Source: Tribonema minus (taxonomy: Eukaryota; Sar; Xanthophyceae; Tribonematales; Tribonemataceae). From it: a stretch of 64,000 nt of DNA. The notes beneath the pieces were generated by a model, which ran no database searches, was not told where the DNA came from, and was given only the letters and a program-made list of their open reading frames with translations. The first letter of the stretch is position 1. The number at the start of each line of letters is the position of its first letter. This document shows, in pieces, positions 6,801 to 63,700 of the stretch. The position numbers and the translations under genes were made by a program. The DNA lies in the NCBI GenBank assembly GCA_017506865.1, contig JAFCMP010000552.1, positions 529,265 through 593,264 of the forward strand, written 5' to 3'.

Positions 6801-9800
6801 CAGGCGATCGTCAATGAGGTACGTAGGTATCTGACACGCTTAGAGCTAGGTGTAGGGGCAGGGTTAGCCCTAACCCTAACCCTAACCATGGGGTCAGGGC
6901 TGGGGTTTGGGTTAGCATTGAAACAGGGGTAGGTCTAAGGTCAGGGGTGTAGGGATAGGGAGAGGGTTAGAGTTAGGGTCAGGGTGTGGGACGAGGGTCA
7001 GGGTTGAGCAGGCGGCGGTGCGCGAGGACAGCCCCCGCAGCGGTGCGGGCCTCGCAGGCATCAACGCGGAGCACTGCTGCCGCTCGATCGTACTGCGGGT
7101 TGGCGATGCTCAGCAATTACGCACGTCATGCGCCGTTTGATCACGTCATACTTGCAAACACGCTTCTTCCGCATGCCCGCTGCTCGTCTCGCTCGTCCAC
7201 CGGGTCCGCCGTGCTTCTGACTGTGTCAGGCACCAGCGCTCGACTGCCGCTCAATGACGTGCCTGCTGCGCAATGATGATCACAAGCTGGGTCTGGGTTG
7301 CTCTGAGCACTGATAGAGCATGCTGATCACTGCCATTTGGTTGCTCAACGCGCGCTGGGGTGGGGTTGACTCCAGCCCTGTTGTGGACCCTAACTGCCTG
7401 ACCCTGCGACATACGCACGTGATCGCATCAGCAGTAGCAGCACAGTTGGCGGCACTACGCTCGGCAGCAGCGCGCTCCGTGCACGAGGGCTAGGGTTAGG
7501 GCTAGATTTAGAGGCAGGGCTGAAGCTAGGGCTAGGGTTAGGGTTAGGGTTAGGTTTAAGACCGAACCGACGTGCGCTGCCAGGTCAGGGCTAGGTAGAC
7601 AGGCAGGGCCAGGGCTGGGGCTAGAATTGCGATCAGACGTCCAACAACCCATGTGTGCTGCCAATATCTGCAGGTGAGCAGCCCGGAGGCCTTCTACTTC
7701 GATGAGGGCGGCTGCGTACGACACGCCCCGCACTCCATCTTGGGGCTAGGGTTAGGGTTAGGGTTGGGGTTAGGGTTAGGGTTAGGACCAGGGTTAGGGT
7801 TAGGGTAACACTCAGGCGCCCAACAAATCACGCGTATGCTGCCAAAATCCACAGGTGAATAGCCCAGATGCCTTCTACTTTGATGAGGGCGGCTGCGTGC
7901 GGCGCGTCACGCGCTCCATCTTCGACCCCAGCGGCAACACGGCAGTGCGCGAGGCGCGGCGGCGCGCGCGCGCGGAGCGCATCGAGGCACGCCGGTGAGC
8001 ACTGGGCGCAATTCATATATTTACTTGAATACTACAAAGTATACATACACGAAAATGAATACTTCGAAGTATAAAGATCGTAGAGCTCTAGGTGACAAGG
8101 GGTGGTTGGCCGCAAGTGCCTTCCACCAATAACCGTGGTCGCCGCTGCTGCAGCAATTGGCCACGAGGCTATAGAAGTATGTGTGAAAGGAGGCGTGCTG
8201 ATAAGTATGCACGTGTACTTTATCATAGAGCGCATCGAGGCGCGCCGCTGAGCACCAAGTAGGCGTACTTTATGGGAAAGAGGAGTGCCTGTATGTATGC
8301 ACATCTACTTTATCGAGGCCGTGCGCGAGGCGCGGCGGCGCGCGCGCGCGGAGCGCATCGAGGCACGCCGGTGAGTACTGGGCGTACTTCATATATATGT
8401 ACTTCGAAGCATACACTTCTATGTATATATCAGGGCGCGCCGGTGAGTACTGGGCGCACTTCATGTAGAAGTATGCATGTATATGGGAGGAGGAGTGTTC
8501 ATATGTATGCACATGTACTTTATCGAGGCGCGCCGGTGAGTATTAAGCAGGCGTACTTAGGGTTAGGGTCAGGGTTAGGGTTAGGGTTAGGGTTAGGAGT
8601 GCATGTATGCGCAACTGATTTGAAGCGACGTATGTGTACAGGGGGGGGGGGGTCAGGATGTAAGAGCGCTTGATATGAGAGCAGTCATAAAATGAGAGCG
8701 ATTCGGCGGCTGGACACATATCTGGTGTATGCATGCATTGTTATTGTGAGCATGCACGTGAGAACACATTGGTCGTTGCGAATAACACCAAAAAGGACTC
8801 GTGTATATGTATATATACTTCGCAAAGAGCGCATGGAGGGGAGCACCTGGCGTTACATGTAGCTTGACTTGTAATGAGTGAATGCCTGTGTTGTCATGCA
8901 GGTAGACTATCGTACCATGAGCATATGAGTACAACATGAGGCAGCACACTTGTGTACGGCAGCAAGTACTGTGAATTGTGCCTGGAGCCATGCGCGTGCG
9001 TGGAGATGTACGGTAGCGGATGAGCGCTTTGCAAAATGCCACAACAAGACTGTTGTGGTGGTGCAAGGCCTGAGAATGGAGGGAAGCTGCCCATGGACTG
9101 CTATTTCTGATTGTTATCAGCGGCAGTGGGCCTCGTGTCCGTTCTCTGCTTCATCTCCGTTTTCTGCGAGCACAGAACGCGCGACAAACCACATGGACAA
9201 CCTCCGCGCTCTGCCGTGCTCCCTCGCAGGGCGCAGCTACTTGAGGAAGCGTGCTTTCAATCACCATAACATGATCACATCTGCCACGGATGCACATAGT
9301 ACAATGCGGTCAGCTGCGCTGAGCATGGATGCCCCGACCGCACTCCTGCAGGAAACAGCTGGAGGCGGCGGAGGCGGCGCGGCAGCAGCGCGCCGAGACG
9401 CTGCGCGCGCGCCGCGAGCGCGCCGCCGCGCACGGCAGCGGCAGCACCAGCGCTGCCGCCCCTGCCGCCAACGACAGCGGCGGCGGCGGCGACGGCGGCG
9501 ATGACGTGCTTGCAGCGCTCACGAGCAGCCTCGATGATGCCTGCAGCGCGTCGCCTGAGCGCCGCAACCGCACGCGCCACTGGAGCCAGCGGCTGTCGGG
9601 GCTGCGCAGCAACGGTGTGGTGTCGCCGCGCTCGCTGCGCCTGCGCGCGCCGTTGCTGTCGCTGCCGGGCCTGTTCAACCGCCGCCGTAGCCGCACGTCG
9701 GCGTCGGCGGCGGCGGCAGAAGCAGCTGCGGCGGAGGCAGCGGCAGCTGCGCCGCCGCCGCCGGCGCGCAGCGCAGCGGCGACGGGCCCGTTGCTCAGCA

Positions 9801-10285: not shown

Positions 10286-12859
10286 GGGGAAGGGGCAGCT
10301 GAGCACTGATGCTTGACATCGAGGAATGTCTTACTTGACCATGGCGGAGTCGCGCGCTCCTCCGCTGTGCGAAGCGGTGCTGCGCGCAGCCAGGATGCAC
10401 AGCGCTCAGCGACGCTTTGCTGAGCTGCGGGCGCAGGGTCGCTCTGCCCGCCTGTCCCCACCAGACGTGAACAGCACCGGATCCACGGGCTGAGTCCGGG
10501 TGCCTGTACGTCTCGCGCAGATGGGGCGGTAGCATGGCGCATTCGTTGACAGTGCACTCAGCACCCACTGGAATCTCTACCTTCGCGCAAGGTGTGCTAC
10601 CGTGGCACTTGGGGTATTTTGGAGCGGAAGCAGGGTGGTTCCATGGGGTGGCGCCGGGGGGCGTCCTGCACCTCCTTCCGCTGCCGCACTGCCCAAGTTA
10701 CTCTGCTGCCGTGCCTGGCGCTCGGAGTGGATGCCGAACCCCCCATTAGGGTTAGGGGCCCTAACTTAGGGCTACATTTAGGGTTAGCGCTGCACCGGGC
10801 ACGCATCGCCAATAAGCGCGAATGCATATGTGCGGTACACTTCAAAATGAGCCTGTAATCTCAAGCAATGCGTAAGCGTTCAGCAGGTGCTCAGCACTCA
10901 CAAAGAGGCGGATTTGCCCAGCAGCAGCGCTCAAGCAGCGTGCGGGGGGTGCGGGCTTTGCATCAGAGTTGTTGCATCTGTTGTTGTTTCGGTTTGTTCA
11001 AGGCGGGAATCATTATTTGCTTCCGGACGCAATCCACAGAGCCTAATTCCAAGCACGTGACTATGATGGGCACCATGTCATCATGATGTCATCATGATGT
11101 GACTCATACATTTGACACTGTTCCGCTGCTGGCTGCAGGCACCTTGAGCCATAGTGCAATGTTGTGTCCGCCAAACCGAGGTGGGCGATCTCACCCAATG
11201 CTTCACGCAAGCGGAGCGATGAAGTTTGGCAGCTCAGATTGGCTGACACTGTGCTATGTTGTACGTTTGGCTATGACCAACAGTTCTCTTGCTTCCATCC
11301 GCTGTGCAACTTCAAGTTCATCGCCATGACGCATCACAATGTTGCATGCTGAACAGTAGGCGACGATGCATCACAGCAGTGCCAGGCACACTCTGACTCC
11401 TGCATGAGATTCATTGCATGATGCATTCCAGTTCAACAATACACAGCAGGGATAATGCGGATGCCCTTTGGTTCAATGCACCATGACACGGTATTATTTG
11501 TGCGCGCTTGCAGCCGTTCAGTGCAACGCTGGTTCCCTTCGACAGAATTGCGCACTTACAACTCTGGCATCAGTTTGAATGGCATTATCTCAGGGCAGCA
11601 ACTGGCCTGCATCAGATCTGTGTTTCCCTCAAACTGGCTGCACATTGGCTGCACCAGCATCTGAGGCGTGCCATCATGTGACTCCACGTGTGCGCAAACG
11701 TGCTTGCGCCGCACTGATGGCAGAGGCAAACGGTATTCTTGCGCAGATGCCTCTGACACAGCACCCCTGCCCTTGACTGCGGGGCTGAACATTTTCAAGT
11801 TGAACATTAGGGTCACGGTGGCTGTACCGAACATGTGTGTGGGGGGGGCGTGCAGCAAACCAAGAAGAGCGGTATTTCCGGATACGAAAGTTGTGGGCCT
11901 GCCTGCATGTGCCGAATGCTGCGACGCCTGACCGTGTCTGCCCATGTCGGAGAGGGGGTGGCGGCGTGCACATTGTGGCAACGCTCAGTGCCTATGCTGT
12001 AGCAGTGCTCAACTGCTGTAGCAGTGCTCAACTGCTGAACTTCGTGTAAGCGTCACTCGGTGGAGTCCTCGTCCGTCCCTGCGCACAGATGAGCACACAT
12101 GGGGGCGCAGACCGTCAGCAGGTGGAGACACGCGGCAATGCATGCGCGCACAGTGACACTGGCACGCGCCGCTTCTAAAAGCAGCACCTGAGACACGCGG
12201 CAATGCATGCGCGCACCGTGACACTGGCACGCGCCGCTTCTAAAAAGCAGCACCTGAATGCCTGACGCCGTGTACGCCATTGGCGCTGAACTGAATTCTG
12301 CGGTTTTCAGGCGTGCCGCATGAAGTCAGGGCAATGGTAGCTAGCGCATGGACACAAGGACTCCACTGGACAGCGGCGGCCAGTGCACAGACAGCAGCAC
12401 CCGGACTGAGCCAGCGCGCATTCATGCAGCACACCTACAGCATGTACCGGGACGGGGCACCACGAGACCACGGCATCGGCGTTGTGAAGAGCTACGCGGC
12501 AGCAGTGGCAGCCTGCTTGCAGTGCATCCGCAAAAAGCGGTGATGTTCAGCACAAAGCACTGCAGCTGCGCTCCCCGGCACTCGCTGAGCAATGCTTGGT
12601 GGCGCCCACTGAGAATCATTGACGGCACCTGCTGTGCCGCTGCTTTTTGTTCAAGCTGAGCAATGCCTCGCACGCGCCAAGAGCTGCTCGCCTGCGCTCT
12701 GTGTACACAGCTCAAACTCGTTGAAACTGGAAAGCGGAGGCCTAGCTGCACCACCTGGTGAAACTTATACGGCACCAACAGCGCGCAGATCCGCATGTTG
12801 ATTCATTGCATAGAGGAACTGAAAGTTGTGGGATACCTGGCAAGTGCGCCGCTTGAAGT
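10286..12859. other. Intergenic region between convergent genes
   Basis: About 2.6 kb between the ends of the IQ/PH gene (+) and the P450 (-). It holds a short GGGTTAGGG run near 10747, a direct repeat of TCATCATGATG near 11080-11100 and a 65-base tandem repeat at 12125. No ORF on either strand looks conserved. Confidence 0.5.
12125..12257. repeat. Two-copy tandem repeat, 65-base period
   Basis: The segment starting GAGACACGCGGCAATGCATG at 12125 is repeated at 12190 with one or two differences and a one-base change in the A-run before GCAGCACCTGA. It lies just beyond the P450 3' end. No coding sense is seen. Confidence 0.9.
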
Positions 12860-15800
12860 TTACACCGAGCAATGCTGCGCATCCGCTGAGCACTGCTCAC
12901 CTGCGCCATCGTTCGCGCCGCGCTCGGTGAACACGAGGCGCACCGGGGGCGGCCCGTAAGAGGAGCCTGCAGTGGGCACCGGCTCGTCCTGCCACTCGGC
13001 GAGCGAAATGGAGAAGCGCTGCAGCAGCGTCGCCACCGCCACCTGCGCGTGTCGATGTAAAAATGATAGGGTTTAAGTTCCTGAGTGGAAGAACAAGCTA
13101 AGATTTGCTTTCTGCCTGAACCAAAGTGTTTTTTTGTCTGCTGTACTTGGGAAGCAGTCGTGACATCGCCAAGCAGTGTGATTAGGCGACGGAGAGGTAC
13201 ATGGGCGAGAGCCTGATGTTGGGCCGGCTGTTGATGAGCAGCAGCGCGTGCCGTTGCGACATCTCTGGGTGCAAGTCATTACGCGCATAATTTCGTCAAG
13301 GGCTTCCAGCGATTGCCGTGAGAGAAGTGCAAATGGGGGATCGACCCCAACCCGCACATTCCACTTTCGCTCCACACTTCACAGCGCGGCACACGCCTTC
13401 AGCTGCGGCTCCGCCACCGCCCGCGAGGTCAACCACTACAAAGGCAGTATACACCCCACATACCCTAACCTGCTTATCGCACTTCCACACTCTGCGGCTC
13501 GACACTTGCCTTCAGCTGCAGCTCCGCCAGCACCTGCCACGCGCACGCAGCCGCGCCGTGGCCGAAGGGCATGGACGCGTCGCCGCGGTGCCGCTGCCGC
13601 CGCTGCCGCGCGCGCCGCGGCGGCTGCTCGGCAGCGGCGAGCCAGCGCTCAGGCAGGAACTCCGCCGCCTTGGTGAAGTTCTCTTCGCTCCTGCGCATAG
13701 GACAGGGGGGCACGACGGGGGGCGTGGCAGCGAGCGGCAGTCAGTAGAGTGCTCGGCAGTGCGGCAGCAGCGTGGGATGCGCGTCAGCGCTCGGGGCAGG
13801 GCGCCGCTGCGAGTTTTGACAGCGGCACTAGGTGCAGGGTGTAGCAGCGAGCAGCGCGATACCTACGGTAGAGTCGGTTAGAGCACAGCGTGGCGCAGAG
13901 CACTGCCGCCCTGTTGAGGTTTTCAGTGCTCCGGTAACTACACAGGTAATTAATCACGCAGCATGACGTCGCAACAGTCAACAGCAGTGCTCGGAATCCG
14001 TCAGAGCCGCCAAACTTCTCATGTGATGCGGTTCACCGCTTTGCAATGAGCAGATGAATCGCACAGGAAGGCCCCGGAAGCTGCTGCCTTCCACAGCCGC
14101 ACCGCATGCATCGCTTCCTTCTTGAACCTCTCTGTTGCATCATGCAGCTGGCAATCAATGCAGAAATCCCCTTCAAAACCCATGCCGCCAGTCCGCCCGA
14201 ACGCATTATGCACTCACGCGCGCCCGTCCCGTCTCAGCAGCACTCAGCAGCAGCAGCGCTCACCTTGCCGCCGCCCCCGTGAGCAGCACGACGTCGGTGC
14301 CGCGCGGAGCGCTGACATGGCCCACCGCGGCATCAGCGGTAGCAGCGCTCAGTGCGATGGCGCCGCCGCCGGGCGCGTGCAGCCGGAGCGACTCCTGCAC
14401 GACGGCGCTAAGGTAGGGCACGCCGCCGCTGACCTGAACAGCGCAACGGGCGGTGACGTATGAATTTGCGCAAAGTGGATGGTGCTGTTGCTGCTGCAAA
14501 TGCACGGTTAAAGCGGTTTCTTGTAATGGTTTCATGGATGCTGGTTTACTGAATACGGAGCCTGAGCGACTCCTGCACGGCGGCGTCCGGGTAGGGCACG
14601 CCGCCGCTGACCTGCACAGCGAAATGGGGGGTGACGTATGCGCGAGTGAGCGGCGCTGCTGCTGCAACTGCATGGCAAACCGGTTTCTTGTAGTGGCTTT
14701 ATGAATGCTGGTTTACTGAATGCAGAGCGTGAGCAACTCCTGCACAAAGGCGTCCAGGTAGGGCACACCGCCGCTGGCCTGGACAGCACAACGGGGGCAA
14801 CGCTTTTGTTGAACGGCGTAAGCAGGCGGCGCTGCTGCTGGCAACTCCCCTGCAAGTTTCATGAACGCTGGTCGACTGAATGCAAAGCCTGAGCGTCTCG
14901 CAGGGCGCGTTCTGGACAGCGCATGCTGATTCGCGCGTGGGCGGCGCTGCTGGTGGTGAATGCGCGGCAAGGCGGTTGCTTCAGCGTTGTGGTTCGTGAA
15001 TACTGGGTAACTGGATGTGGAGACCTTGAGTGACTCCTGCATGTTGGTGTTCGGGGCCGGCGCGCCGCGTGCATACATATGCGCAGGTGAGCGGTTCTGC
15101 TGTCTGTGATGGCAATGCAGTCTCTTGCCCTCAGCATAGGTGAATTTGCAATGCCATCTTTGCGCATTGCACAATCCCCCCCCCCCCCCCGGCCCAAGGT
15201 CATGGTTTCCTACATGCTTCGGTGCCGTATGGCCCAGCATGGGTGCTGCGCGCTCTACGCCTCTACTTTTAATATCACATGTAAGCATATTAGCCCAGCT
15301 ACACACAAAGGCACTGAGCAGTTGACGCGCAGGGGCTGAAGGAGAGCCATACACAGCCAGATCGGCCCTGGATTTCAGGTACTCCAACACCCTAACCGTG
15401 CACACAAATCCCACCTATCCACTGTGACTCTCCGTTGATCACAACTTCTAGTAAGCGTTCAAGTCAGCGCACAGGTAATCCGCAAGATGGCGTGCCCACT
15501 CGCCTGCTGCCAGAGCAGTGCGTCCGGTCCCGGCGGCGCGCTCGCGCCACCGCCGCCGCTGCTGCCGCTGCCGCTGTGCTCCGTCGTGACGCGCACGCCC
15601 CCCGCGCCGCCGCCCCCCCCGCCCCCCGTGCCCTCCGCGCTAATTACTGCCGTTGCGCGCACGGTGACGGCGTCGTGCACGATGGAGTCGCTCACGAGCG
15701 TGCGCGGCGGCGGCGGCGCGGCTTGTGCTGAGCGGTGAGCTGGCGGCAGCGACAGCAGCGCCGCAGCGCGTTCTCCGCTACAGCTGCTGTTGCCGCCGCC

Positions 15801-35027: not shown

Positions 35028-38000
35028 ATGGCGGCATTCAACTACTCGAAATGGGACCACATTGAGGTAAGTTGGATCACTGATCTCAACAGTTTGTAAC
35101 TGTGCCAGCATCTTGACGCTCTTTGACCTTAACTCGTCCTGCTGTCACGCCTGAAGCTGTCGGACGACGAGTCCGACTGTCACCCGAACATCGACAAGGA
35201 GTCATGGTTCCGCATGAAGCACCGCAGCAGAGTGGAGCGGGAGGAGCGGGAGGAGGCTGAAAAACAGGAGCTTGAGAAGAGCAACTCTACCGATCTTAAG
35301 CGAGCTATGAAACTGAAGGAGCTGCTGCATGCGGTGAAGTCGGGGGAAGCTCAGGACGAAACAGAAGATCCGATTGCCATCTCGAACGAACTCAAAGCGC
35401 TGGAGGAGGCAATGGAGAAGCGGCATAAACGCCTGCAAGAGATAGAGAAGAACAAGAAGTGGAATTGGGAGAACATGTGCCATGTCGTAGGTGAGTTGCT
35501 GCTGCAAAATGATATGTTAGCTGCTGATCTGTTGTCAGTGAACGACTAAACCACCCCCCTCCATATAATGGATTGCCATCAAGTGCGCCAAGGTCTACAG
35601 CACGCAGACAGTGCACCAATAGCTGGCGTAGCCAGGTGTAGCTGCACCTGTTTGTCAGTCCCACCTGCAGCTTGCAGGTTGAGTGCACTTTGCACACAGT
35701 CCGGTGCTGCAGTTCACAAACTGCTCGGCTGCAGTGTGTGCTTGGCTCATGGAGCTCTGCTAATGAGCCAGGCGCGACGAGGTGGCGCGCAAGCGCCCTG
35801 TCTTACAGGTCTTTCCACTGCAATTGAGGATCAAAGTTTGAGTATATGCTTCGGTATATATAAGCCGGCCCTGAATTGCTGGCCCGAAGCCCAAATATTG
35901 GGTGCAGCTGGCCTGGCACAAGCTGCTGTTCGTGTCCAGAACCCCGTCAGCGCTTAGCTCCGGTTGCGTTTTTGACAGGGGTGTTTGGTTGCTGCCGCAC
36001 ACGCGCGCGCCCATCACACAAAGCGGTGTGGTGGTTGCTCAGATCCATCGCCACCGCCAACGCTGACTACTGCTTGTTCGGTACACCTGCGTGGAGCGCC
36101 CACCGTAAACCAGTTAATGGCGACCCCAGATCATCTGCCCCTTGCGCTCGCAGCTGCCCTAACTGAAGTCGTGCTGCTCACACACTAAGGCGGTCAGGCG
36201 ACATACACGCCTCCGTCCGCACCTCAACTTGACCTCATGTTGATCACGCTTCAATTGCGCATGTTCGCAGAGGAGCGGACGATAGTGTCTGCCGAGAAAG
36301 CGGGCGACGGCAAGGACAACACGGTGCACAGCGAGCTGCCGCCGAAGCTGGCGGCGGCGATAGCGGGGGGAAAGGCGGCGGTCAAGCCGGTGCCGGGGCC
36401 AGCGTCCGTGAAGCAGGAGGTCACGAGCTACTCGCAGTTTGTGGAGGCGTATGAGGAGCTGCTGGAGCGGTTCAGCGAGATTGCGAGCATGGAGAAGACG
36501 CAGGCGAGTCATAACTCGAGTTTTGACTCAGATTTTGTGCAGGTTTTTGAGTCGCTCACGAGTCACTCGTGCAGGGCATGGTCACTTGTGTGTTCTTCAG
36601 TCCTCTGGGGGTGACAGTAGGCACTACGAGGAGCTGCTGGAGTGGTTCAGCGAGATTGCGAGCATGGAAAAGACGCAGGCAAGTCTTGACTCAGTTCTTC
36701 GTGCAGTTTTCTGACTTGCCAGTGAGTGCAGGTGACTTCCGACTTCATTCGTGCAGCACGACGTGCTAGTGCTGAATCAGTGCGTGCAGGCTTCTGACTC
36801 GCCAGTGAGTCACCTCGTGCAGGCGAGTTCTGATTCAGTGCGTGCAGGCTTCTGACTTGCCAATGCGTCACTCGTGCAGGCGAGTGCTGAATCAAATCAT
36901 GCAGTTTTATGACCTGTCAATGAGCTGGTTGTGCAAGGCATACGAACTCATGCTTTTGCAGTTTGTGTTTCTTCATTTGCTGGGGTCTGGAGGTGCTGCG
37001 AGTGTAGGCATTGTGTCATGGGCACTTTTGTGACAAGTGAGGAATGCCCCACAAGGAGCAGGTTGAGTTTGAACTTCAAGGATGCACAGCTGCTGTAGCT
37101 TGCGTCTGCCCGCAGCTGCATTCCTGTTTGCTCCGACACCGAACCTGACACTTGGAAGTACTTGCCTTGTTGGTGTATCAATGATACATAGGTAAATGAA
37201 ACATAAGTGCAAGACCGCACACAACCCTCTATCGATGAGCTGCTGTCTGATGACCACCCTACACACTTGCACGCACAACCCGACTCTATTGTGAGTCGTG
37301 AGTCGGGCCTGCACCTCCAAATGGGCGCGTCTGCCCCGCGCGCGCGGCGCTTGCTGCTGCTGCATGTTCCCGACGGCCACCGCCTGCACAGAGTGCTGTT
37401 TCGACATGTGTAACTGTGCACACGGGCGTGCGCATGTGCATACCCGCAGGCCGGCACCATCAGCTGAGCACTGTGAAACTGCCCCCCCCCCCCCCCGCCT
37501 TCCGTGGCTGCGTGCCCGCGGGAGTTTTTGCTGTAAATGGCGGCGAGATCCTGTGTACTTTGACAACAGTTTTGACAACAGTTTTGTACCGACAGTGCAT
37601 CATCAACAGACAGTGTTGACGATAGGAATCAGCGGTCAAGTTTTTGACAGAAGGGCAGGCATTGACCATTGACCGAAGTGCACCTGTTTTTTGCTGACGT
37701 GCACGCGCAGGAGTTCTTGCTGAAGGACGGGCAGGTCCTGTTTGCGGAGCACGCGCAGAACTATCTGCTGCTGAGCTGCCTGGAGGATGAGATGAACGGG
37801 AAGCACACGCGCGCGCAGCTCGTGGCCCGCCAGAGTCAGGTTCGCCATGTACCTGTCACCAAATATAACACTTCTAGAAGCGAGGGTGTGGGGGGGGGCG
37901 CAGGGGGTCTGAGCATGATCCGTGCTTCCACGAATACGCGGCATGTTTGTATACCACCACCAAGCCACGAGAGCACTACTGTATTGATCAAGGGGAAGGA

Positions 38001-40409
38001 GGGTCTGGCCTCAGCGCCGAGCCAGGAGTGTGAAATGGCACATCTGGGCACGCAGCGTCCACGTTCATTTAGCACCAGCGGCAATAGGCAGAGCGGATGC
38101 AGGAGCGCACTCCAAGAGGATGGGAGTTTGTCGACTTCAACACATGCCTATGAAGTACGGGCTGAGCGCTGATTTGCCTCCCCTCCCCCCTCCCCCCCCC
38201 CCCTCCTGTTATGAGAAGTCGCTCGCATGCCAGGCGGATCATTCACAGTCTGTCGTCGCTGTAGCACGGTTCACCCAGCTACGTTTTTGGACTTACTTTT
38301 CTGCGCCGCATCCATGATGCATGTTGCCTCCAATGCGTGTCGGTCACACGGAGCGGTGCTCTTACTGCACCTGCCACCACCGCGTCTGCAGTCAGCACGG
38401 TCAGTGCTCACCCCCCCCCCCCCCCCCTTTCTCGCCACGATGGCGCGTTGCAGCATGCACTGGCACATGTGCCTGATGCCGTAAATTTGTACTGACTATG
38501 TGTCGTGCTTACATATGGTGTACTACACGATACGCTGGTGACCCGATCTCTGTCCAGTCTTGAGCATCTGCCGCTGCCTGGTGTGATGATACGTCAGACC
38601 ATATAGTGCTCCCCGCCCCCCCCCCCCTCCCCCCCGCCATTCACGTCTGCCCAAATCCTGTGCAACATGGCTGGTGGAGTACACCATAGAACATGACCTC
38701 GATGTCTCGACAAAAGTGACATAGACAAAACAATGGTGACCCAACCTTTGATCCGCCATGCGCATCCGCTGCTGCTTGTTGACGAAAATAACCCAGTCCA
38801 GGCAGTGCTCAGCCCCCCCCCCCCCCCCCCCTTGAGCATCTGCTGCCGCTTGTTGACAAACATAAACCAGTTCAGGCAATGCTCAGCCGCCCCCCCCCCC
38901 CCCCTCCTTGCTGCCCCAGATGCTGTCCAACATCACGGAGCTGGCGGTGGGGCTGCGGCGGCCGCCGCAAGACGTCGTGATACCGTTCTTCCGCAGGCTC
39001 TCGGAGAAGGTCCACGGCGACGCCTTTGAGGAGGCGGTGCGAGACTTCTACGCGCGCGTGCAGGCACGCGCCAAGGAGAAGCGGCGGGAGATGGCGGCGG
39101 AGGAGGCGGCGGCGGCGCGCGGCGGCGGCGGCGGCGGCGACGGCGACACAGAGGTGAGAGGAGGAGCCATCAGGTGTTGCGAGTGAGTGGTGAGTGAAGT
39201 GTTTTGGCGCATAACCAGCGGCTACGGTTGTGGCAGTCATGTATGTGCGCCAAGGAGAACCGGCGGGAGATGGCGGCAGAGGAGGCGGCGGCGGCGCGCG
39301 GCGGCGGCGGCGGCGGCGGCGACACCGAGGTGAGAGAGCTGTTGCGAGTTATAACAGTACCCAGTGCAAGTAGAGTGAAGTGTTATGGCGTACGACGAGT
39401 GGTTCTGGTCATGGCGGTCGTGTATGCGCGCCAAGGACAAGCGGCGGGAGATGGCGGCGGAGGAAGCTGCGTCGTGCGCGCGCGGCGGCAGCAGCGGCGA
39501 TGACAGCGACACTGAGGTGAGGCGAGGGATTGGGTCTGTCATTGGCAACTAGAAATGTGATACCGAATGAGATGTAGTTGCGAGCGCATACCTTAGGGTT
39601 AGGGTTAGGGCCTAACCCTAACCCTAAGCCACACGCAGTGAGGTGTGTGTATAGATTGAGGACGGCAGTGCGCGGGGGCGGCGGCAACGGCGGCTGCGGC
39701 GGCGGCGGCGATTCCGGAGTGAGTTCAGGAGACATTTGCGCGAATGGCGACTCGTATGCAGTCGTGTGTGATGACTGTGACTGGGGCCATGCGCGCGGCG
39801 GCGATGTGGTAAAAGAGGCATAGTCGCCATGTTGTGGTGCACACTCTGCGCCGCCGCTCGGCAGTCTGCGCGGCACTCACGCGAGCCCCCGCACGCACCC
39901 CTGCGCGCGCGCGCGCACGGCAGCAGCGCATAAGTCTAAGGTAGTCGGGATACAACCTTGCCCAAGAGCATTGCGAAGGCACCAAGATAGTAGAGCCACA
40001 CTACACACCGGAGGCGCACCACACCGCACCACGCAATCGAAAAGCATAGGAGAACCTTATCACCGTGTGTGCGCATGTGCATCAGGTTGTGGAGCTGAGC
40101 AAGGAGGAGCGGCTCGGCCCCGGCGGCCTCGACCCTCTCGAGGTCTTCGAGTCGCTCCCCGAGCCCATGCAGACGGCGTTCGAGAGCAAGAGCGTGGAGG
40201 CGCTCAAGGCAGCGCTCGCCGCGCTGCCGCCGAAGGAGCGCGCATACCACATGAAGCGCTGTGAGGACAGCGGGCTGTGGGTGCCGGGGCCAGGGGACGG
40301 CGGCGGCGGCGACGACGATGACGACGATGATGAAGATGAAGACGAAGTTGGTGAAAGGGGCGAGGGGGAGGCTGGCGAGCAGCGGCCGGCGGGGGAGGAG
40401 GGGGCGTGA
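35028..40409 (+). CDS. CDC37: Hsp90 co-chaperone Cdc37
   Basis: Six exons join in phase: 35028-35066, 35157-35490, 36271-36503, 37711-37839, 38920-39153, 40086-40409, about 430 aa. The N-terminus AAFNYSKWDHIELSDDESD with HPNIDKESWFRMKHRSR is the kinase-binding start of Cdc37, followed by a charged coiled coil. The middle (FVEAYEELLERF, then NYLLLSCLEDEM) matches the Hsp90-binding region. The C-terminal exon ERLGPGGLDPLEVFESLPEP and YHMKRCEDSGLWVP is diagnostic. It adds a polyaspartate/glutamate tail. Cdc37 loads protein kinases onto cytosolic Hsp90. Exon 3 ends at a GC donor (CAG then GCGAGT), which the phase requires. Introns 3 and 5 carry repeated copies of the preceding exon ends. Confidence 0.97.
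36504..36910 (+). repeat. Copy of the CDC37 exon 3 3' edge plus minisatellite
   Basis: Positions 36628-36677 repeat the exon 3 end (GAGGAGCTGCTGGAG, then GAAAAGACGCAG) and keep a GC donor (GCAAGT). From 36680 to 36905 a unit of about 55-60 bases with GTGCAGGCTTCTGACT and GCCAGTGAGTCAC recurs about four times, a decayed echo of the sequence just after the first donor (GAGTCACTCGTGCAGG). Confidence 0.8.
39154..39725 (+). repeat. Tandem copies of the CDC37 exon 5 3' edge
   Basis: The end of exon 5 (GCCAAGGAGAAGCGGCGGGA, GCG/GGC runs, GACACAGAG then GTGAGAG) recurs at 39247-39335 and 39428-39520 with donors GTGAGAG and GTGAGGC, and as a worn copy at 39665-39720 with GTGAGT. All could splice. The linking sequence GCGAGT...GTGAAGTGTT is also repeated. 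Confidence 0.85.
39593..39630. repeat. Head-to-head TTAGGG/CCCTAA run
   Basis: TTAGGGTTAGGGTTAGGG is followed at once by CCTAACCCTAACCCTAA, so the two telomere-type runs face each other. It sits between the third and fourth exon 5 copies. Confidence 0.9.
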
Positions 40410-51545: not shown

Positions 51546-54500
51546 ATGGCTTTCCTCTTGAACAAGTTGGCCTCCATGGCGGAGCCCTACGTGATGCCGA
51601 TAGTGGAGAAGAACGTGGTGCCAGACGCCCTGGTCAGATTTGGTACGCATCGAAAGTGGATCGCGCGCCAATTCAGCCAGCGGCACAGTTGCCCGCTCAG
51701 TAAGCCTGTGCCCTTCCGCTATGTGCTGCTGATGCGTTGAAGTGCATTGATGTCTGCTGCAGGGGTCAGGCGGCAGTGTGCTGATAGGCTGCAGCAGATT
51801 TCCGCGGGCACTCCTGAGGAGCAGGCAGCAGCTAAGGAAGCGATGGTGAAGGAGCTTCAGAGCATGCCGATAGCTGTGCAAACAGGTGAACAAGTGATCT
51901 ACATCATCGACTGCTTTCGTTGCAGCTGCAACTGACACACGCAATTGGGTGCACATCCAGCTTGTGTCATCATGTACGGTCGCCACGTGTGGCAGGATGG
52001 ACCCCCCAGAGGTCTGTGCTTGTGGCAAACCATCGCAGATAGGAGGTTTTATGAGTGAGATATGCGCATGTTGCTCTGTCTACTGTCGTGCAAGAGCCCG
52101 GCGTTCATGGGTGTGAACCATGCATCTGCCTTGAGGGCTATCTGAACTTGGCAGAAGGCTGCACAGGGAGCTGGCATGCCTGTTACAGCAGTCACTGTTG
52201 CACAACGGCATTTCCGTGACGTCGTGAGCATACACGCCAGGTGCATCACACACGGGCATCCCTTAAAGAGGCATATGGCGGGCTGCACCGAATAGTGCGC
52301 CAGGGCCGCTCTACATAGAGCCGCAGAGATGCAGCACGGCAAGCATGCGCCAGCTCTATCGGACCGTGTGCATGTCAGCCGGCAGCGCCGCGGATCTGGA
52401 CAAGCTGCAAGTGCACTGCGTGCAACACGAGTGCATTGACACTCACTTGTACATGAGTGAGCCATCAGGCGAGTCATCACTGACCAGCGCTGCGGCGGCG
52501 CGCTCCCCCCCCGCGCCGCCGCGCCCGGTTGCCCTTCGACTCTCAGTGCACTCAAAGGCGGCACTCATGTTCAGCAGACCTGTAAGGGCTGGCTGATGAC
52601 CTCTAGCCTGCACGTCCCTCACTGATGGTCTCAGTGCGCAGCTGACGCAAGCATCGCTCGCACGCCACGCGACCTCCGGCGCTGGGAGGTATGGGCCTCA
52701 CGATTGCTCACCGCACGGCTCCTCGCACATACAGTGGTGTTCGAGCAGCGCCACCCAGTGAAACTCAGCATGGGGGACGTTGTAGGGCTAGGGTTAGGGT
52801 AAGCGGGGCACGGTCTATTCATGCGTCGTGTGTATTCGTAGTGCTCCTGTGCTCCCAGCGCGCGTCGGCGAGTGGCACAAGCGCCTGCCGCGGTGACGTA
52901 TGGGCCATGGCCACCGGCAGTCAGCGCATAACACCTGCGCGCTTCACTGCGAAGTCGCTGCGTATGCGCGCATGCAGCTCCGCTCAACACCTTGCTGAGC
53001 GTTAGGCGCGCACATGCAGCAGCGCTCTGGAGTCCGCTGCGCCACCGATCCTCAGGAAATGGCAGCGATTCACCCCTCCTGGCCAGGTGCAGCAGTTGCC
53101 AAGGCCTCAGACTCATTGAACCGCCATGCTCCGTGCACGCCTTGTGCAAACACGGCGCACATGCCCTGTATGCCCCCACCGCCACCCCACGCGTGCGCGC
53201 GCTGTTGTGGGCACTGCGCAGCACCAAGAGGTCGGCGCCGCCTTCAGCAGCGCTCCACGGTTTGCTGCCCCTCACCCGGCACACCAGCGGCGGTGTGCAC
53301 CCGCAGCAAGGCTCCACGCTTTGTGCTGACCTCATGTCGCACACGCCCCCCCCCCCCCTCCCCCCCCCCTGCGCGCGCGCCGCGCAGACGCCGCCAACGC
53401 GCAGCACCACGAGGAGGTCAGCGCTGCCTTCATCCGCAGGTTGCTGCCCTCGCCCGGTAACACACTGGCCGTGCGCACACGCAGCAGTGCTCCATGTGTG
53501 TGCTGACCCCACGGGGCACACACACCCTCCCCCCCCCCCCCCCCCCGCGCTGCATTCGTATGCTGACCCCATGGCGCACACGCCCCACCTACTCCCCCCC
53601 GCCCCCCCGCGCGTGCGCTGCAGACGCCGCCAACGCGCAGCACTACGAGGTCAGCGCGGCCTTCTACAAGATCGTCCTGGGGCCGCGCCTCAAGTACTCG
53701 AGCGGCCTGTGGCCGCGCCCCGACACGACCTTCGCCGAGAGCGAGACCGCCATGCTCGAGTGCTACTGCGAGCGCGCGCAGCTCGCGGACGGCATGCGCA
53801 TCGTGGACCTTGGCTGCGGCTGGGGCAGCCTCACGCTGTTCCTCGCGGCGCGCTACCCCGCGGCGCGCGTCACCGCCATCAGCAACAGCGCGAGCCAGAA
53901 GGCGTTCATTGACGCCGCGTGCGCGGAGCGCGGCCTCGCGAACGTCACGGTCATCACGGGGAACATCAACACGTGAGTGCGCATTCGCGTGCAGCGAGGA
54001 GACGTGCGGCGCGTAGGCGCGTACCCTGTACTGCCAAGCACCGCCTGTGTACTGTGTGTGTACTCCTGAGCAGCGTCGACCGCACCTGTGCTGCACAGTG
54101 CGCCATGGGTGGCGCGCGAGCGCGTGCGTCTCCGCTCGTGCGGATGCAAATTTGCAGTGGGTTCGGTCCTGCGTGCGCGTCGTGATTGTCTGGATGCGCG
54201 CGAGGGTCGCGTGAGCGACTGTCGATGTTTGCTGGTGCTTGTGGCGCGGCGTGTCTGCATGATGTGCGCACAGAACAGCAGCAGCTCGTGTGTGTAGGCT
54301 ATATTTCTGCAGGCTTCACATGCAGTACATACATGTGCATGTTCAGGCAGCAGCAGCATGTACTTCGAAGTACGTATCGTTTGCGAGTGGGTGCATCGAC
54401 TTCCGTAACGCCTTAGACTAACTGCTGTCAAGTGCAGGTCTGAATGCCACTTGATGTGGTGCGGGAAGCGGGGCCAGCACTGCACCTGCGCTATATGGTG

Positions 54501-58432: not shown

Positions 58433-58878
58433 GATGGTGATGGTGGTGTCTTGACTATCTCAGTAGCTGAAGCACGGTTCAAGGCATCTATCTGTATCTA
58501 CACTTGTCTAGTTGCTGCAGAAGCGGTGTGTCGCAACTTTTAGGGCACAAATCTCAAGCAGCTGACATCACTCACGGCTCTGGTACGAGTTCCTGCGGCA
58601 GTATGTTATCTGCTTACTGAGCTTGTCGAGGTGGGGGGGGTCGGTCATCCACCATCTGCTGATGATGTTGCAGGGGGTTTATTCCGGCTACCCGGACTTG
58701 TTTGACTCGTCGACTCAAAAGGCATTGCAATGAGGGGCAGAGGCAGAGCCAAGCAGACCAGGACGCAAGCGCCTGCAGGAGTTTAGTAGAGAGACAATAC
58801 TTCTGGCCGTATTGCAGGAGCAGGCGCAGCGGAGCGAGACAGAGAGCAGTGGAGGAAGCCACTGGGGGGGCAGCCAAC
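58433..58878. promoter_or_regulatory. Divergent upstream region of the small ORF and eIF2-alpha
   Basis: 446 bases between opposed starts. An open frame continues upstream of the eIF2-alpha ATG from 58702, but the family start and the context CCAACATGG at 58874-58882 favour 58879. No clear TATA box. Confidence 0.45.
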
Positions 58879-61800
58879 ATGGCTGTGGAAGAGGGAGAAA
58901 CGCGGCGCGTATACCTGCCAGAGGAGAGGGCGCGGCTTGAATGTCGCTTCTACGAGGCGCAGTTTCCTGAGATAGAGGACGTCGTCATGGTCAACGTCCG
59001 CAACATCGCGGACATGGGTGCCTATGTGGTGCTGCTGGAGTACAACAACATCGAGGGCATGATCTTGCTGTCGGAGCTGTCCCGCAGACGCATACGGTCC
59101 ATCAACAGGCTGATCCGAGTCAACAGGAATGAGGTGGCCATGGTGCTGAGGGTGGACAGGGAGAAGGGGTACATTGACTTGTCCAAGAGGCGTGTGTCGC
59201 CTGAGGACATCGCCAAGTGCGAGGACAGATACAACAAGGTGAGTTCTGCAAAAGGATTTCCATGTGGCAAGCATAATATGGCCACCATCGTACCCTCATT
59301 TGCCAAACAACAATATGTCAACATCACCATCGCCATACCTAGATGGCCATTGTTGCTGCTGTCCAGATTTCCCTTCCCTGCGCACCTTGTGGTTGCACTT
59401 CAAGTGCACTTCCTCCAAGCGCACAAAGGCCTCTGCAAATAGGAAAATGAGGGTGCATTGCTGCGGACATGATTGTGTGTCCCCTATAGCATCGGAGTCT
59501 CTCTTGATGCTGTTGCTGCCGCTGCTGCGGTGGCTGAAAACCCTAGGATTTCAGTGCGGCTCAGGGGCACATATCATACCAGACGATCTGCCTAGCAAGC
59601 CAAGCAGCGACGTCGCGCCGCACTGCTCCTCAGGCTCTCAATGGCCTCACGTGTTGCCGGCCCGCCCTGCAAGACTCATGTAATGACTCACCTGCTGCTG
59701 TGCGCCTCCACCCGAGCGCTGACCACATGGTGCAATGATGTCTGGCGGGTGCGACGCACTTCAAGTAGTAGTTGTGAAAAGGTTCCGGCAAACAAGGAGC
59801 TGCGGGTGCTATGTAGGGGTCGGACGCGCAGCGCGCGCGGCACTCGGCGGCACGAGCTGCGGGGGGGCGCGCTGTCGCAGCAGCCGCGCAAGCGCCGCAG
59901 TTGCTTGCATGCGCATAAGATGACATTTACCTCATGACTTGAGAAGTCGTGGATGTATTTGTCGCTCGACAGTGCCCTGCGTTCATATGGGGACTGCTGT
60001 TACACTCACGTGTGCGCATCGGTGCGCCTTCGTGCCGCAGTTCCTGTCCTTGCGCTGCCAAACTCTAGCAGCGACCCTGACTGGTCCGATAGACGTGAGA
60101 CACAAACTGCACTATGTATCGCTGCCAAAAAGCTGCTTACCTGACAGAGAGGCAGTTCGAAACCTTGATGGCACTGCCATCACTTCTTTGATACTTGCAG
60201 TTCACAGCTGCACCGAGGACAAGTGCCCTTCATCGTGTGCAGGGCTGGCCGCTGTCATTCACTTAACGTCTCCACAAGCAAAAGGCCTGTCATATGAGAT
60301 GTTACTTCTACTGCTGACCTGACGTCAGGCTAGATGGTCAGGCTGAGTCAAGGCTTGAATCAGAGTCACGTTGAAGAAGCATAGAGTATGTAGTTACCAC
60401 ACAGGTCAGTGTCTAAAACATCAGACATGCGACATACCGAACACGGCAGTAGTGCAGACTGAAACGCTCAACAGCACGACGCGCTTGTCCCCGCCTCCAC
60501 GCCTGCCTCAAGAACCCTGCGAAGCGCGCTCATGTGCAACAACGTAGTGTCGCTGTCCGCCGCTGCTGATGGGGGGAGGGGGGGGGGGGGGGGGGGGGGG
60601 TCCAACGGCCAGTATCAGTGCCCTGCAGCCTGCGGCACGTCACACGCCGGCGCCGCCGCACTTCTTTAGCTTCACTGCATGTCACGTTGGCGCTGAACCC
60701 GCCCAGCCCTCTTCCTTGTGCTGTGCCACGCCATATCAGCCCCGCTGAGTTTGCACCGAAAGTGCCGTATGATCTCTGGCGAAGAGTCATTGTGCAAAGC
60801 GGTTGCTGCGGCAATCGCCCCCACTGGCATGGGGCCAGGCGAGCTACGCATTGCGGCAGCGGCGACAAGCTGAGCACTACTGCGCTTGCTCCGCCCTGGT
60901 CGTCCCGTCGCAGGCTGCGCGGTAGGGTCAAGGGTTTGATCATGGCCTGAGCGGTGTTGGCCTAAGCGGTGCTGCGCCGCATTTGCTGGCCCGCGACAGT
61001 GCGGCAGCAGCGCGTGACGCGCCGCGCAACGGCGACTGCCAGCTCACCGGCCGCGGCGCCATCGCTCTGTACACCCAAGAGCCCCTCGTGGAAGGAACGT
61101 CACTTGGCGCTGACCTTGCCCCATGTTGACGCTGATTTCTGGCGTCCCCTTGTCGTACTCATCAGCTCACATCCGCCGCTGCTGCAGGCCGAGGCGGTGC
61201 GTGACATCCTGCAGCACGTCGCTTGAGCGCTGCCACCACGTCTCGCTTACATGATGTTTAGCACTGTTTTCACGCACCCCGCGCTGACGCTCCCGGTTTT
61301 TCCCCCCACACGCCCCCTTCCGCAATGCGCCGCAGGCCAAGGCAGTGCACAGCATCCTGCGGCACGTGGCAGAGCTGCGCGGCGCGTCGGTTGAGCGCTG
61401 CCACCACGTCTCCCTTACATGACATTTACCGCTGTTTCCACGCACCCCGCGCTGACGCCGCCATTTTCGGCTCCTGCATTTGCCGCTGCCGCAGGCCAAG
61501 GCAGTGCACAGCATCCTGCGACACGTCGCCGAGCTGCGCGGCGCGTCGGTGGAGGACCTCTACACGCGCGTCGGCTGGCCGCTGCAGCGGCGCTACGGCT
61601 CCGCGCACGACGCCTTCAAGCTGTGCCTCGCGGGCGGCGAGGAGGAGGAGAACGACGTCTTTGCGGGGCTCGACGTCGACGACAACACGCGCGCGTCGCT
61701 CATCACGTACGTGTGGTGCAACTTCAACTTTTTGATGCAAGTTCAACTTTGGACTTCCATGTGTGGTGATGCGTGCAGCGCCCTATGCCGACTAAATTGT

Positions 61801-62480
61801 AAAAGAAGTACGTGCGGTCGGCGCCCGGCTGGATCTCGACTGCTAGATGGTAACACAACTTGAATATCAACTTCCATGCGTGGTGTCAATAATGTCAACG
61901 TTCAAGTCTCACCGGTGCGGTCGCACGGGTGACTTTGCGCAGGTACATCCGCCGGCGCCTCGCGCCGCAGCCCATCAAGATCCGCGGCGACATTGAGATC
62001 ACGTGCTACACGTACGAGGGCGTGGACGCCATCCGCGAGTCGCTGCAGGCGGGCATCGACGTCGGCAATGAGGTGAGCTAGGGCTAGGTTTAGGATTAGG
62101 ATTAGGGTTTGGGCAAGAGGGGCTAGCTTCAGGAGGCGATTCGTAGGGTCAGGGTCAGAGGGGCTAAAGTCAAGAGTTGCTGCAGGCGGGCATCGACGTC
62201 GGCAACGAGGTGAGCTAGGGCTAGGGTTAGGGGAGCTAGGTGTAGGGTTAAAGTTAGGGTTAGGGGGGCTAGGGTTAGGAGTTGCTGGAGGCAGGCATCG
62301 GCATCTGCTGCAGGCGGGCATCAACGTCGGCAACGAGGTGAGCTAGGGTTAGGGTTAGGGGGGGGGGGCTAGGTTGAGGAGTCACTGTAGGCGGGCATCC
62401 ACGTCGGCAATACCGTGAGCTAGGGCAAGGGTTAGGGCTATGTTTAGGGTCAGCAGACCCCAAACCTATTTGAGTGTGTG

Positions 62481-62511
<31 letters not shown>

Positions 62512-63479
62512 GGGTTGACATAGCTGCAACGGCGTGCAGCGCCGCGCAGCAGAGTGGGACGCGCGAACGCTAGCGTTCCCCACACAGATGGATTCAAATG
62601 TGCCCTGTGCTGCGGACTAGTGGTTGTTTCTGCCAGGCGGCAGCGGCGAAGCGGCGTTCGGCGCCGTGCAGCTGCGCAACAAGGACAGTGGCGACACCGG
62701 CATCTCGAGAGTGCATGTACGGCGCTGATGCGGCAGCACGGCTCGGCACAGCTGGTGCGCCGTGACTGGATAAAGTATGTCTTCCAAGTAAGCATGTTGT
62801 GTTGTACTTCAGAAGTATTGTGATTTCCGACAAGGTCAATAGAATGCACTCATCGCTAGTTTTTGAAAGCGCGGCGCGTGAGATGGCATCACGACATCTT
62901 GAAGGCACCTGGCCGGTGGCCTGGCAACCACCAGCACCACCATGACACCGCAGCGCCGCGCGTGTGTCTCCCAGTCTGCGCGAATGCATGATCCTGCTCT
63001 GTTGTGCTTGGAGCACACTGCTGTACACAAGGTGGCGCGCAACCCTGACCGCTATCCATCATTTCCATCGGCCACTTCAAGCACTCCTCTCGACGTCAAC
63101 GCTTCCGCTTCCGCCTCTGCTGCCCTCGGGACCACTGATGTTCATCAGCAAACTTCAAGTGCTCATCTCCAACTTCAACTTGCCATCCCCCCCCCCCCAC
63201 CACCCCGCCGCGCAGGACATGGTCATCAAGATCAAGCTCATCGCGCCGCCGCGCTACACCATCGACACCATGACGCTCGACAAGGACGCGGGCAAGGCGG
63301 CGCTGGAGAAGGCGATTGAGGTCATCACCGCCAGGATCGCGGAGAAGGGGGGGCGCCTCGAGGTCAAGCTCGCGCCCAAAGCGGTCTCGCAGCGCGAGGA
63401 GTCGGAGCTGGCGGCCATGATGGAGCGGCTCGCGCTGGAGAATGAGGAAATCGATGGCGACGCGCCGGAGGACGTCTAG
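58879..63479 (+). CDS. EIF2S1: Translation initiation factor eIF2 subunit alpha
   Basis: Four exons join in phase: 58879-59238, 61495-61706, 61943-62072, 63216-63479, 321 aa (human 315). The S1 domain has [20 protein letters not shown] and [20 protein letters not shown]; the regulated serine (Ser51 in human numbering) is present as Ser68 in SELSRRR, so control by eIF2 kinases should be possible. The helical domain follows ([28 protein letters not shown]), then the C-terminal domain [20 protein letters not shown] and [14 protein letters not shown]. It lacks the long acidic tail of animals. eIF2-alpha is part of the factor that brings initiator tRNA to the ribosome. Introns 1 and 3 and the 3' flank all carry copies of neighbouring exon edges. 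Confidence 0.98.
61180..61494 (+). repeat. Tandem copies of the eIF2-alpha exon 2 5' edge
   Basis: The acceptor and exon start (CCGCAG then GCCAAGGCAGTGCACAGCAT) occur at 61188 (worn), 61337 (nearly intact for about 60 bases) and 61495 (true). Periods are about 149 and 158 bases. After GGTTGAGCGCTGCCACCACG the copies share a linker through CGCACCCCGCGCTGACGC. The copy at 61337 still encodes [20 protein letters not shown], then reads out of register. Confidence 0.9.
62073..62460 (+). repeat. Copies of the eIF2-alpha exon 3 3' edge, each followed by TTAGGG-like runs
   Basis: The exon end (GCGGGCATCGACGTCGGCAA, GAG, then GTGAGCTAGG) recurs at about 62177-62212, 62283-62345 and 62380-62422. In each copy the donor runs directly into GGGCTAGGG and GGGTTAGGG units, so exon edge, donor and telomere-type repeat form one unit of about 105 bases. 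The last copy has a changed edge (ATACC then GTGAGC). Confidence 0.9.
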
Positions 63480-63700
63480 GGGGGGTTAGGCGGTGGGGGG
63501 GGGGGGGGGGGGGGGGGTCTCACTGCCCGGCGCGGTGCATGCCAGTTTTGGCGCCCACTTGCGCGCTGTGACGTGATTTGGAAGGTAGAATTGGGGATGT
63601 CTAGGGGGGTTGGGGTGGGGGGGGGGCACGGTGCATGCCATTTTTGGTGCTACTATGCGCTGTGACGCGATGCGGGGCAGGATTGGGGGGACTGTTTCAC
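63474..63700 (+). repeat. Duplicated eIF2-alpha stop-codon region and 3' flank
   Basis: GACGTCTAGGGGGG at 63474 is repeated as GATGTCTAGGGGGG at 63596, each followed by a G tract, GCACGGTGCATGCC or close to it, a TTTTTGG/TTTTGG stretch and CGCTGTGACG. The period is about 121 bases, so the 3' end of the gene is duplicated in the same way as internal exon edges. Confidence 0.8.

Follow-up and report, generated by a model that had tools for sequence, protein, structure and literature searches.

Exon-edge copies in the eIF2-alpha gene and its neighbours

The window analysed in this study, a 64-kb stretch of the genome of the yellow-green alga Tribonema minus (Xanthophyceae), holds near its end a gene for eIF2-alpha whose four plus-strand exons (58879–59238, with the S1 domain; 61495–61706; 61943–62072; and 63216–63479, with the stop codon) yield a clean protein of 319 amino acids in spliced translation. 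This spliced frame, together with Pfam matches to S1 in the open reading frame 58666–59439 and to EIF_2_alpha in exon 2 (positions 1–48) and exon 4 (positions 90–114; E = 0.00049, alone below the curated cut-off), indicates at the sequence level that the gene is real. The segment 61180–62460 runs from the end of intron 1 through exons 2 and 3 into the first part of intron 3, and the gene ends at 63479.

A preliminary description of this DNA held that both of these introns carry serial copies of the adjoining exon edges, splice sites included, and the alignments bear this out. Intron 1 ends with two upstream copies of its acceptor and the start of exon 2, a near one at 61330–61395 (62/66 positions identical) and a far one at 61184–61222 (31/39), at spacings of 168 and 159; a weak additional match lies at 60616–60641 (22/26), and Tandem Repeats Finder reports an array at 61217–61554 (period 168, 2.1 copies) whose last unit ends in exon 2. 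Intron 3 begins with three copies of the exon 3 end and donor, at 62174–62217 (42/44), 62307–62345 (37/39) and 62379–62422 (38/44, the last exonic codon altered and the GT kept), plus a truncated copy of the exon end alone at 62279–62300 (19/22); all of these copies are on the plus strand. At the stop region, likewise described as duplicated, the edge with the stop codon recurs as a short plus-strand copy in the 3′ flank (63595–63609, 14/15 nt identical), adjoining a 68-nt repeat of 78% identity (63529–63596 and 63625–63688). At a score of at least 30, the remaining four splice edges of the gene gave no copy.

Two of the intron 3 copies were called as 24-nt exons by the gene finder (62186–62209 and 62314–62337), with CTGCAG in the copied exon end as acceptor. 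Such calls would be expected if the copies were functional alternative or tandem exons, used as microexons in some transcripts, yet the eIF2-alpha frame reads through without them. Decoy copies can be called as microexons, and automated annotation of the T. minus genome may hold such false exons. Telomere-like GGGTTA/TTAGGG runs also occur in introns of the window (7743–7806, 8557–8597 and a degenerate stretch at 62080–62450).

Similar copies had been claimed for at least five other genes of the window; besides eIF2-alpha, three show them clearly and two more possibly. On the plus strand, a mitochondrial carrier gene has an intronic copy of its exon start at 1596 (1288–1330; offset 308, 35/43 identical), and a gene with a weak IQ match has copies of an exon end at 6405 (6463–6560; offset 155, 85/98), of an exon start at 7868 (7687–7741; offset 181, 47/55) and of an exon end with its donor at 7994 (8317–8396; 95%, with smaller copies between 8224 and 8558). 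The array at 6405 includes a further unit, ending at 6708, that the gene finder called as exon. A minus-strand gene repeats the acceptor edge of its exon 14264–14433 at 14559–14611 (minus strand; offset 178, 47/53), with more copies to 15068, and has another edge copy at edge 20975. The two possible cases are a Cdc37 gene, in which exon sequence (36450–36522) near an exon end at 36542 recurs on the plus strand at 36625–36696 (90% over 73 nt) and which is touched by less tidy repeats at 36450–36696 and 39068–39521, and the region before a CMAS-like domain, with less tidy repeats at 53151–53664; some of the repeat copies at both places may be real exons. A young 65-bp tandem duplication (97%) at 12125–12257 lies inside a predicted intron, off any edge.

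Frequency of edge copies against controls

For counts we used 264 kb, comprising the 64-kb window and 200 kb of two contigs (C549 and C334), with gene models from a self-trained gene-finding HMM run without transcripts. Exon edges of 40 nt were compared with their adjoining introns, setting aside introns shorter than 150 nt (28/176) and edges on exons shorter than 60 nt (14/296); internal predicted exons below 60 nt and genes with less than 240 nt of coding sequence were left out of the edge and cluster counts in this set. Predicted acceptors in the sample tend to read YGCAG, approximately 72% having G at −4, and donors favour GTGAG or GTGCG.

A copy was present in the adjoining intron at 34 of 282 exon edges, about one in eight, and at both kinds of edge (donor 18/138, acceptor 16/144), in agreement with the proposal that existing introns have been extended recurrently, at both ends and in many genes. 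This frequency is far above that of composition controls, with 1/282 in reversed introns and 0/282 in other introns, and exon segments 100–140 nt from the edge had a copy in 1 of 180 cases. Two other accounts were rejected: the copies are not concentrated in a few genes (P = 0.44), and GC content is not the driver (0.58–0.62 in non-exonic copies, 0.57–0.60 in introns). Among introns of at least 150 nt, 33 of 148 have an edge copy, so that the wording of the preliminary description, in which introns are 'built from' such copies, goes too far. Copy-bearing introns are longer (median 909 nt, n = 33, versus 641 nt, n = 115; P = 0.002), although longer introns also give copies more room.

Small samples of coding-sequence ends gave copies at 3/41 stop edges by the same threshold (reversed control 0/41; P = 0.60 against splice edges) and at 1/35 start edges. 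These few stop-codon cases suggest the same process there and, if stop edges do resemble splice edges, the boundary between coding and non-coding constraint, not splicing, would be what matters.

That edge copies exceed the general repeat density of the introns holds in the main comparison but not in every control. Intron-internal segments had a copy in 25/372 cases in a first sampling; with denser sampling the contrast was 34/282 edges to 139/1880 internal segments (P = 0.0095). It was 29/194 to 84/1019 for longer, better-scoring exons (P = 0.0065), and the adjoining 40-base stretch on the intron side had a copy in 16/263 (P = 0.017). A complexity filter weakened the excess (16/148 versus 63/948, P = 0.085), and in five tubulin introns supported by profile matches on both sides 3/10 edges compared with 36/159 internal segments, with no clear excess.

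We also clustered repeat pairs irrespective of edges, disregarding low-complexity pairs and those that were shorter than 28 nt, scored below 34 bits or were separated by more than 1 kb, in a survey totalling approximately 319 kb (264.0 + 34.0 + 20.6 kb) of the 158-Mb assembly of 554 contigs. Under a rotation control, 43 of 83 clusters lay at edges against 21.7 expected, intron and intergenic clusters were not above expectation, and clusters confined to exons numbered 3 against 11.4 expected, a depletion of exon-internal duplication. By our reasoning the rotation overstates the edge expectation, since either copy may hit an edge, and a single-unit null was used instead in the placement test given below. 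Two arrays of approximately 126–129-bp units (L017:6483–8164 and L018:986–1890) look largely coding and are possible in-frame exonic tandem duplications.

Self-trained gene models and the proneness of short repeats to mis-assembly could in principle create such patterns as artefacts. This we regard as very improbable: the exon parts of the copies differ from their exon by 0–20%, the copies of the 264-kb set lie in contigs of 0.6–2 Mb, and copies recur in an HSP70 gene whose exons are anchored exactly by a protein.

Anatomy and decay of the copies

That gene, on contig C190, has nine exons which, joined without the copies, reproduce protein P0134 (named T. minus) exactly up to the end of the locus, while four of its eight introns hold 11 edge copies. 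In its two paralogues on contig C522, none of 14 introns holds a copy. At five intron positions, matched by us through exon lengths, the C190 introns measure 786–1726 nt and those of C522 198–531 nt, shorter by a factor of 1.8 to 4; for one more matching intron, the sixth, the lengths are 733 nt against 444 and 468 nt. The two C522 genes (L033 and L034; C522:953501–959000 and 980501–986000) lie in opposite orientation approximately 24 kb apart, and their introns are largely alignable (pieces of 75–89%) with no local duplications found, unlike the C190 paralogue.

Across the edge copies of the 264-kb set, the distance from exon to copy has a median of 168 (quartiles 145–199). In 27 of 34 cases the duplication also takes in the stretch of intron that separates exon end and copy, and the unit is therefore usually a tandem duplication spanning the edge; by the test used, this stretch is not duplicated in the other seven. 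In 20/34 cases the 40 intron bases beside the junction fail to align with those of the copy (score below 10) though the exon part aligns, so that simple tandem units may not account for every event. In the preliminary description the arrays grow away from the exon into the intron, but any copy left out of the mRNA must fall on the intronic side of the splice site being used, which makes this polarity a tautology and no evidence of directed growth.

The presence of splice-site sequence in the units recalls the gain of introns by duplication of an AGGT-bearing exon segment (the Rogers model), an event of the same type known in other eukaryotes (PMC3443670). Under that model the start of the downstream exon is copied at the 5′ end of the intron and the end of the upstream exon at its 3′ end (Ei|iE). 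Such gain resembles the T. minus pattern in being a local, in-gene tandem duplication that carries splice-site sequence; it differs in that the unit there is exonic and makes an intron, whereas the T. minus unit lies across an edge that already exists and lengthens the intron. Among 184 local pairs, classified without resolving those that involve several exons, the plain Ei|iE form occurs 0 times, compared with 21 Ei|i and 21 i|iE; the copies mostly include the intron flank too, and the copy-bearing introns of the C190 HSP70 gene share their positions with short introns of its paralogues. We therefore consider it very unlikely that the copies are remains of intron gain.

The copies do decay, as had been noted, although the supposed trend with distance is loose: at edges with at least two copies the nearest is the best match in 10 of 15. 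Pooled differences between exon and copy amount to 54/741, 56/742 and 95/739 at codon positions 1, 2 and 3 (0.073, 0.075 and 0.129), and the additional difference at position 3 fits silent change in the exon itself. Of 49 copies, 41 retain the GT or AG at the junction; given 365/392 identical bases in the flanking 8 nt, our arithmetic predicts approximately 0.87 intact dinucleotides, and there is accordingly nothing special in the intactness of the phase-keeping edge that the preliminary description had stressed. Since positions 1 and 2 differ equally and the dinucleotides are near free decay, the pooled copies are not coding, and their splice sites are neither preserved nor selected against. 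Together with the HSP70 protein, which lacks any copies, these observations make it improbable that the copies function as exons, the gene-finder calls in eIF2-alpha notwithstanding.

Gene conversion keeping the copies alike was considered and rejected: the exon parts are 9.5% diverged and the aligned spacers, with indels, mostly approximately 20%, near the two-fold difference expected from a pinned exon, with the caveat that alignment is often lost in the spacers beside the junction.

Origin of the edge excess

The best explanation, to which we give a probability of about 0.7, is that tandem duplications spanning an exon boundary are tolerated at edges, with the exon copy pinned and the intron copy decaying. 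Short duplications (units of approximately 100–200 bp, median spacing approximately 165 bp) would arise repeatedly in the T. minus genome, the mutational step presumably being replication slippage or unequal exchange. Those wholly within exons would alter the protein and mostly be removed, while those spanning an edge would be tolerated, since splicing would go on at the outer site and the additional exon end with its splice site would join the intron, where the copies would go unused in RNA. With its exonic member held by protein selection and its intronic member decaying neutrally, such a pair should stay recognisable for longer than one lying entirely in an intron, and repeated events would build up arrays with two to five units, lengthening the introns and leaving decoy splice sites that go unused. 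The unit structure in most cases, the neutral decay of the copies, their absence from the HSP70 protein and the depletion in exon interiors support this explanation.

Survivorship of this kind has a limit. If duplication were uniform, we argue, an exon-edge pair would be recognisable at most approximately twice as long as an intron-internal pair. A neutral simulation with pinned exons gave edge-to-internal ratios of 0.70–0.95 (0.60–1.30 in a smaller earlier run) against 1.63 observed, whereas a three-fold edge boost gave 1.62, with simulated internal rates somewhat above those observed. When single units were placed at random in genes, with the outer ends of each gene excluded as edges, 14.9 edge clusters were expected, or 23.0 at doubled odds; 44 of 66 non-exonic clusters were seen (P = 2 × 10−8), a count in which 65 distinct clusters occupy 67 rows, two being counted twice.

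The loci anchored by homology point the same way. In these, the tubulin exon ends and two HSP70 exon ends were set by hand from the gene finder and profile matches. With an edge cluster required to cover 8 nt or more on both sides of the edge, the HSP70 loci have eight edge and seven other clusters and the tubulin loci, seven in number and picked by profile match alone, nine and five. Edge clusters occur in 3/5 HSP70 and 4/7 tubulin loci, with six each in L038 and L035; in tubulin loci L042 and L043 the sole repeat comes within approximately 10 nt of an exon end and fails the 8-nt rule, and L044 has none. Jointly, 4.9 edge clusters are expected, or 8.2 at doubled odds, and 17 of 29 were seen (P = 0.0004). 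At doubled odds the tubulin loci taken alone give P = 0.0015 and HSP70 alone is marginal (8/15 versus 4.6 expected, P = 0.052).

Some preference for exon-proximal DNA thus probably remains after survivorship, though not every control shows the excess, and the counts are reproduced only if such DNA is favoured a further two to three times. In the HMM-based set this residue would reflect either a mutational hot spot or gene-model error, and the anchored loci argue against the latter. A tentative reading, which we hold possible but doubtful, is that duplication is itself targeted, with exon boundaries or exon DNA acting as hot spots, for example through nucleosome-sized re-replication. Border-straddling segments of approximately 165 bp, about one nucleosome repeat, might then be duplicated several times oftener than intron interiors or intergenic DNA, and introns might grow chiefly from their ends. 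The residual excess and the fit of a boost of about three speak for it, as do the unremarkable intron and intergenic clusters and a concentration of spacings at 130–185 bp (25/43 edge versus 9/37 intron and intergenic clusters), a range chosen after seeing the data. It is weakened by the similar stop-codon edges, which suggest that splicing may not be needed, by the marginal HSP70 result, by the filtered contrast with introns, by the five supported tubulin introns and by the possibility that gene-model errors inflate the excess. Were duplication favoured at edges, introns would be growing by a recurrent route that has gone unrecognised, with decoy splice sites as a by-product; whether the phenomenon is new depends on this residual excess, which the simplest neutral model leaves unexplained.

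Intron lengthening is mostly attributed to transposons. Boundary-spanning tandem duplication, as the preferred source of the T. minus copies, makes some intron sequence traceable to its source, the neighbouring exon edge, adding intron length and leaving decoy splice sites behind. Selection at codon positions 1 and 2 holds the exon copy, which makes every pair of exon and copy a natural experiment on the neutral decay of a splice site with a known original state, and the pairs raise the question of how often the spliceosome ignores a near-perfect decoy 100–300 nt away.

Tandem exon duplication also places exon-derived copies with splice sites beside the parent exon; the T. minus copies differ in being partial, neutrally decaying and missing from the HSP70 protein. 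A close likeness is a potato RdRp gene (PMC4974935), where a tandem duplication is reported to take in the 3′ portion of one intron together with the 5′ portion of the exon that follows, including the splice signals, and to have given rise to a new intron and an insertion of exon sequence through a cryptic donor. The T. minus unit similarly spans an exon end and the adjoining intron; by contrast, the eIF2-alpha and C190 HSP70 proteins are unchanged, an existing intron absorbs the copy with no new intron in either gene, and about an eighth of tested edges are involved rather than one gene. Introner elements (PMC9860276), which are copies of one element in many genes, likewise supply intronic sequence of recent origin to many genes, but the T. 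minus copies are gene-specific. Introners were rejected here: a 641-bp eIF2-alpha query against its own genome gave nine matches, five in the same gene and four short ones elsewhere (36–42 nt, all to the telomere-like start of intron 3), in a search that skips simple repeats. Boundary-spanning tandem duplication itself is known; what is unusual here is its frequency, the lengthening of introns already present from either end and the remaining excess at edges. Among the papers listed by literature searches, judged by title and the beginning of the abstract and with most subscription papers outside the scope, none reported recurrent exon-edge copies in existing introns.

One intron of the C190 HSP70 gene (L035 7369–7870) lies 42 nt upstream, in coding terms, of where the C522 paralogues have theirs (L034 4322–4621), a site at which C190 has none; either loss plus gain or a moved intron would account for the displacement.
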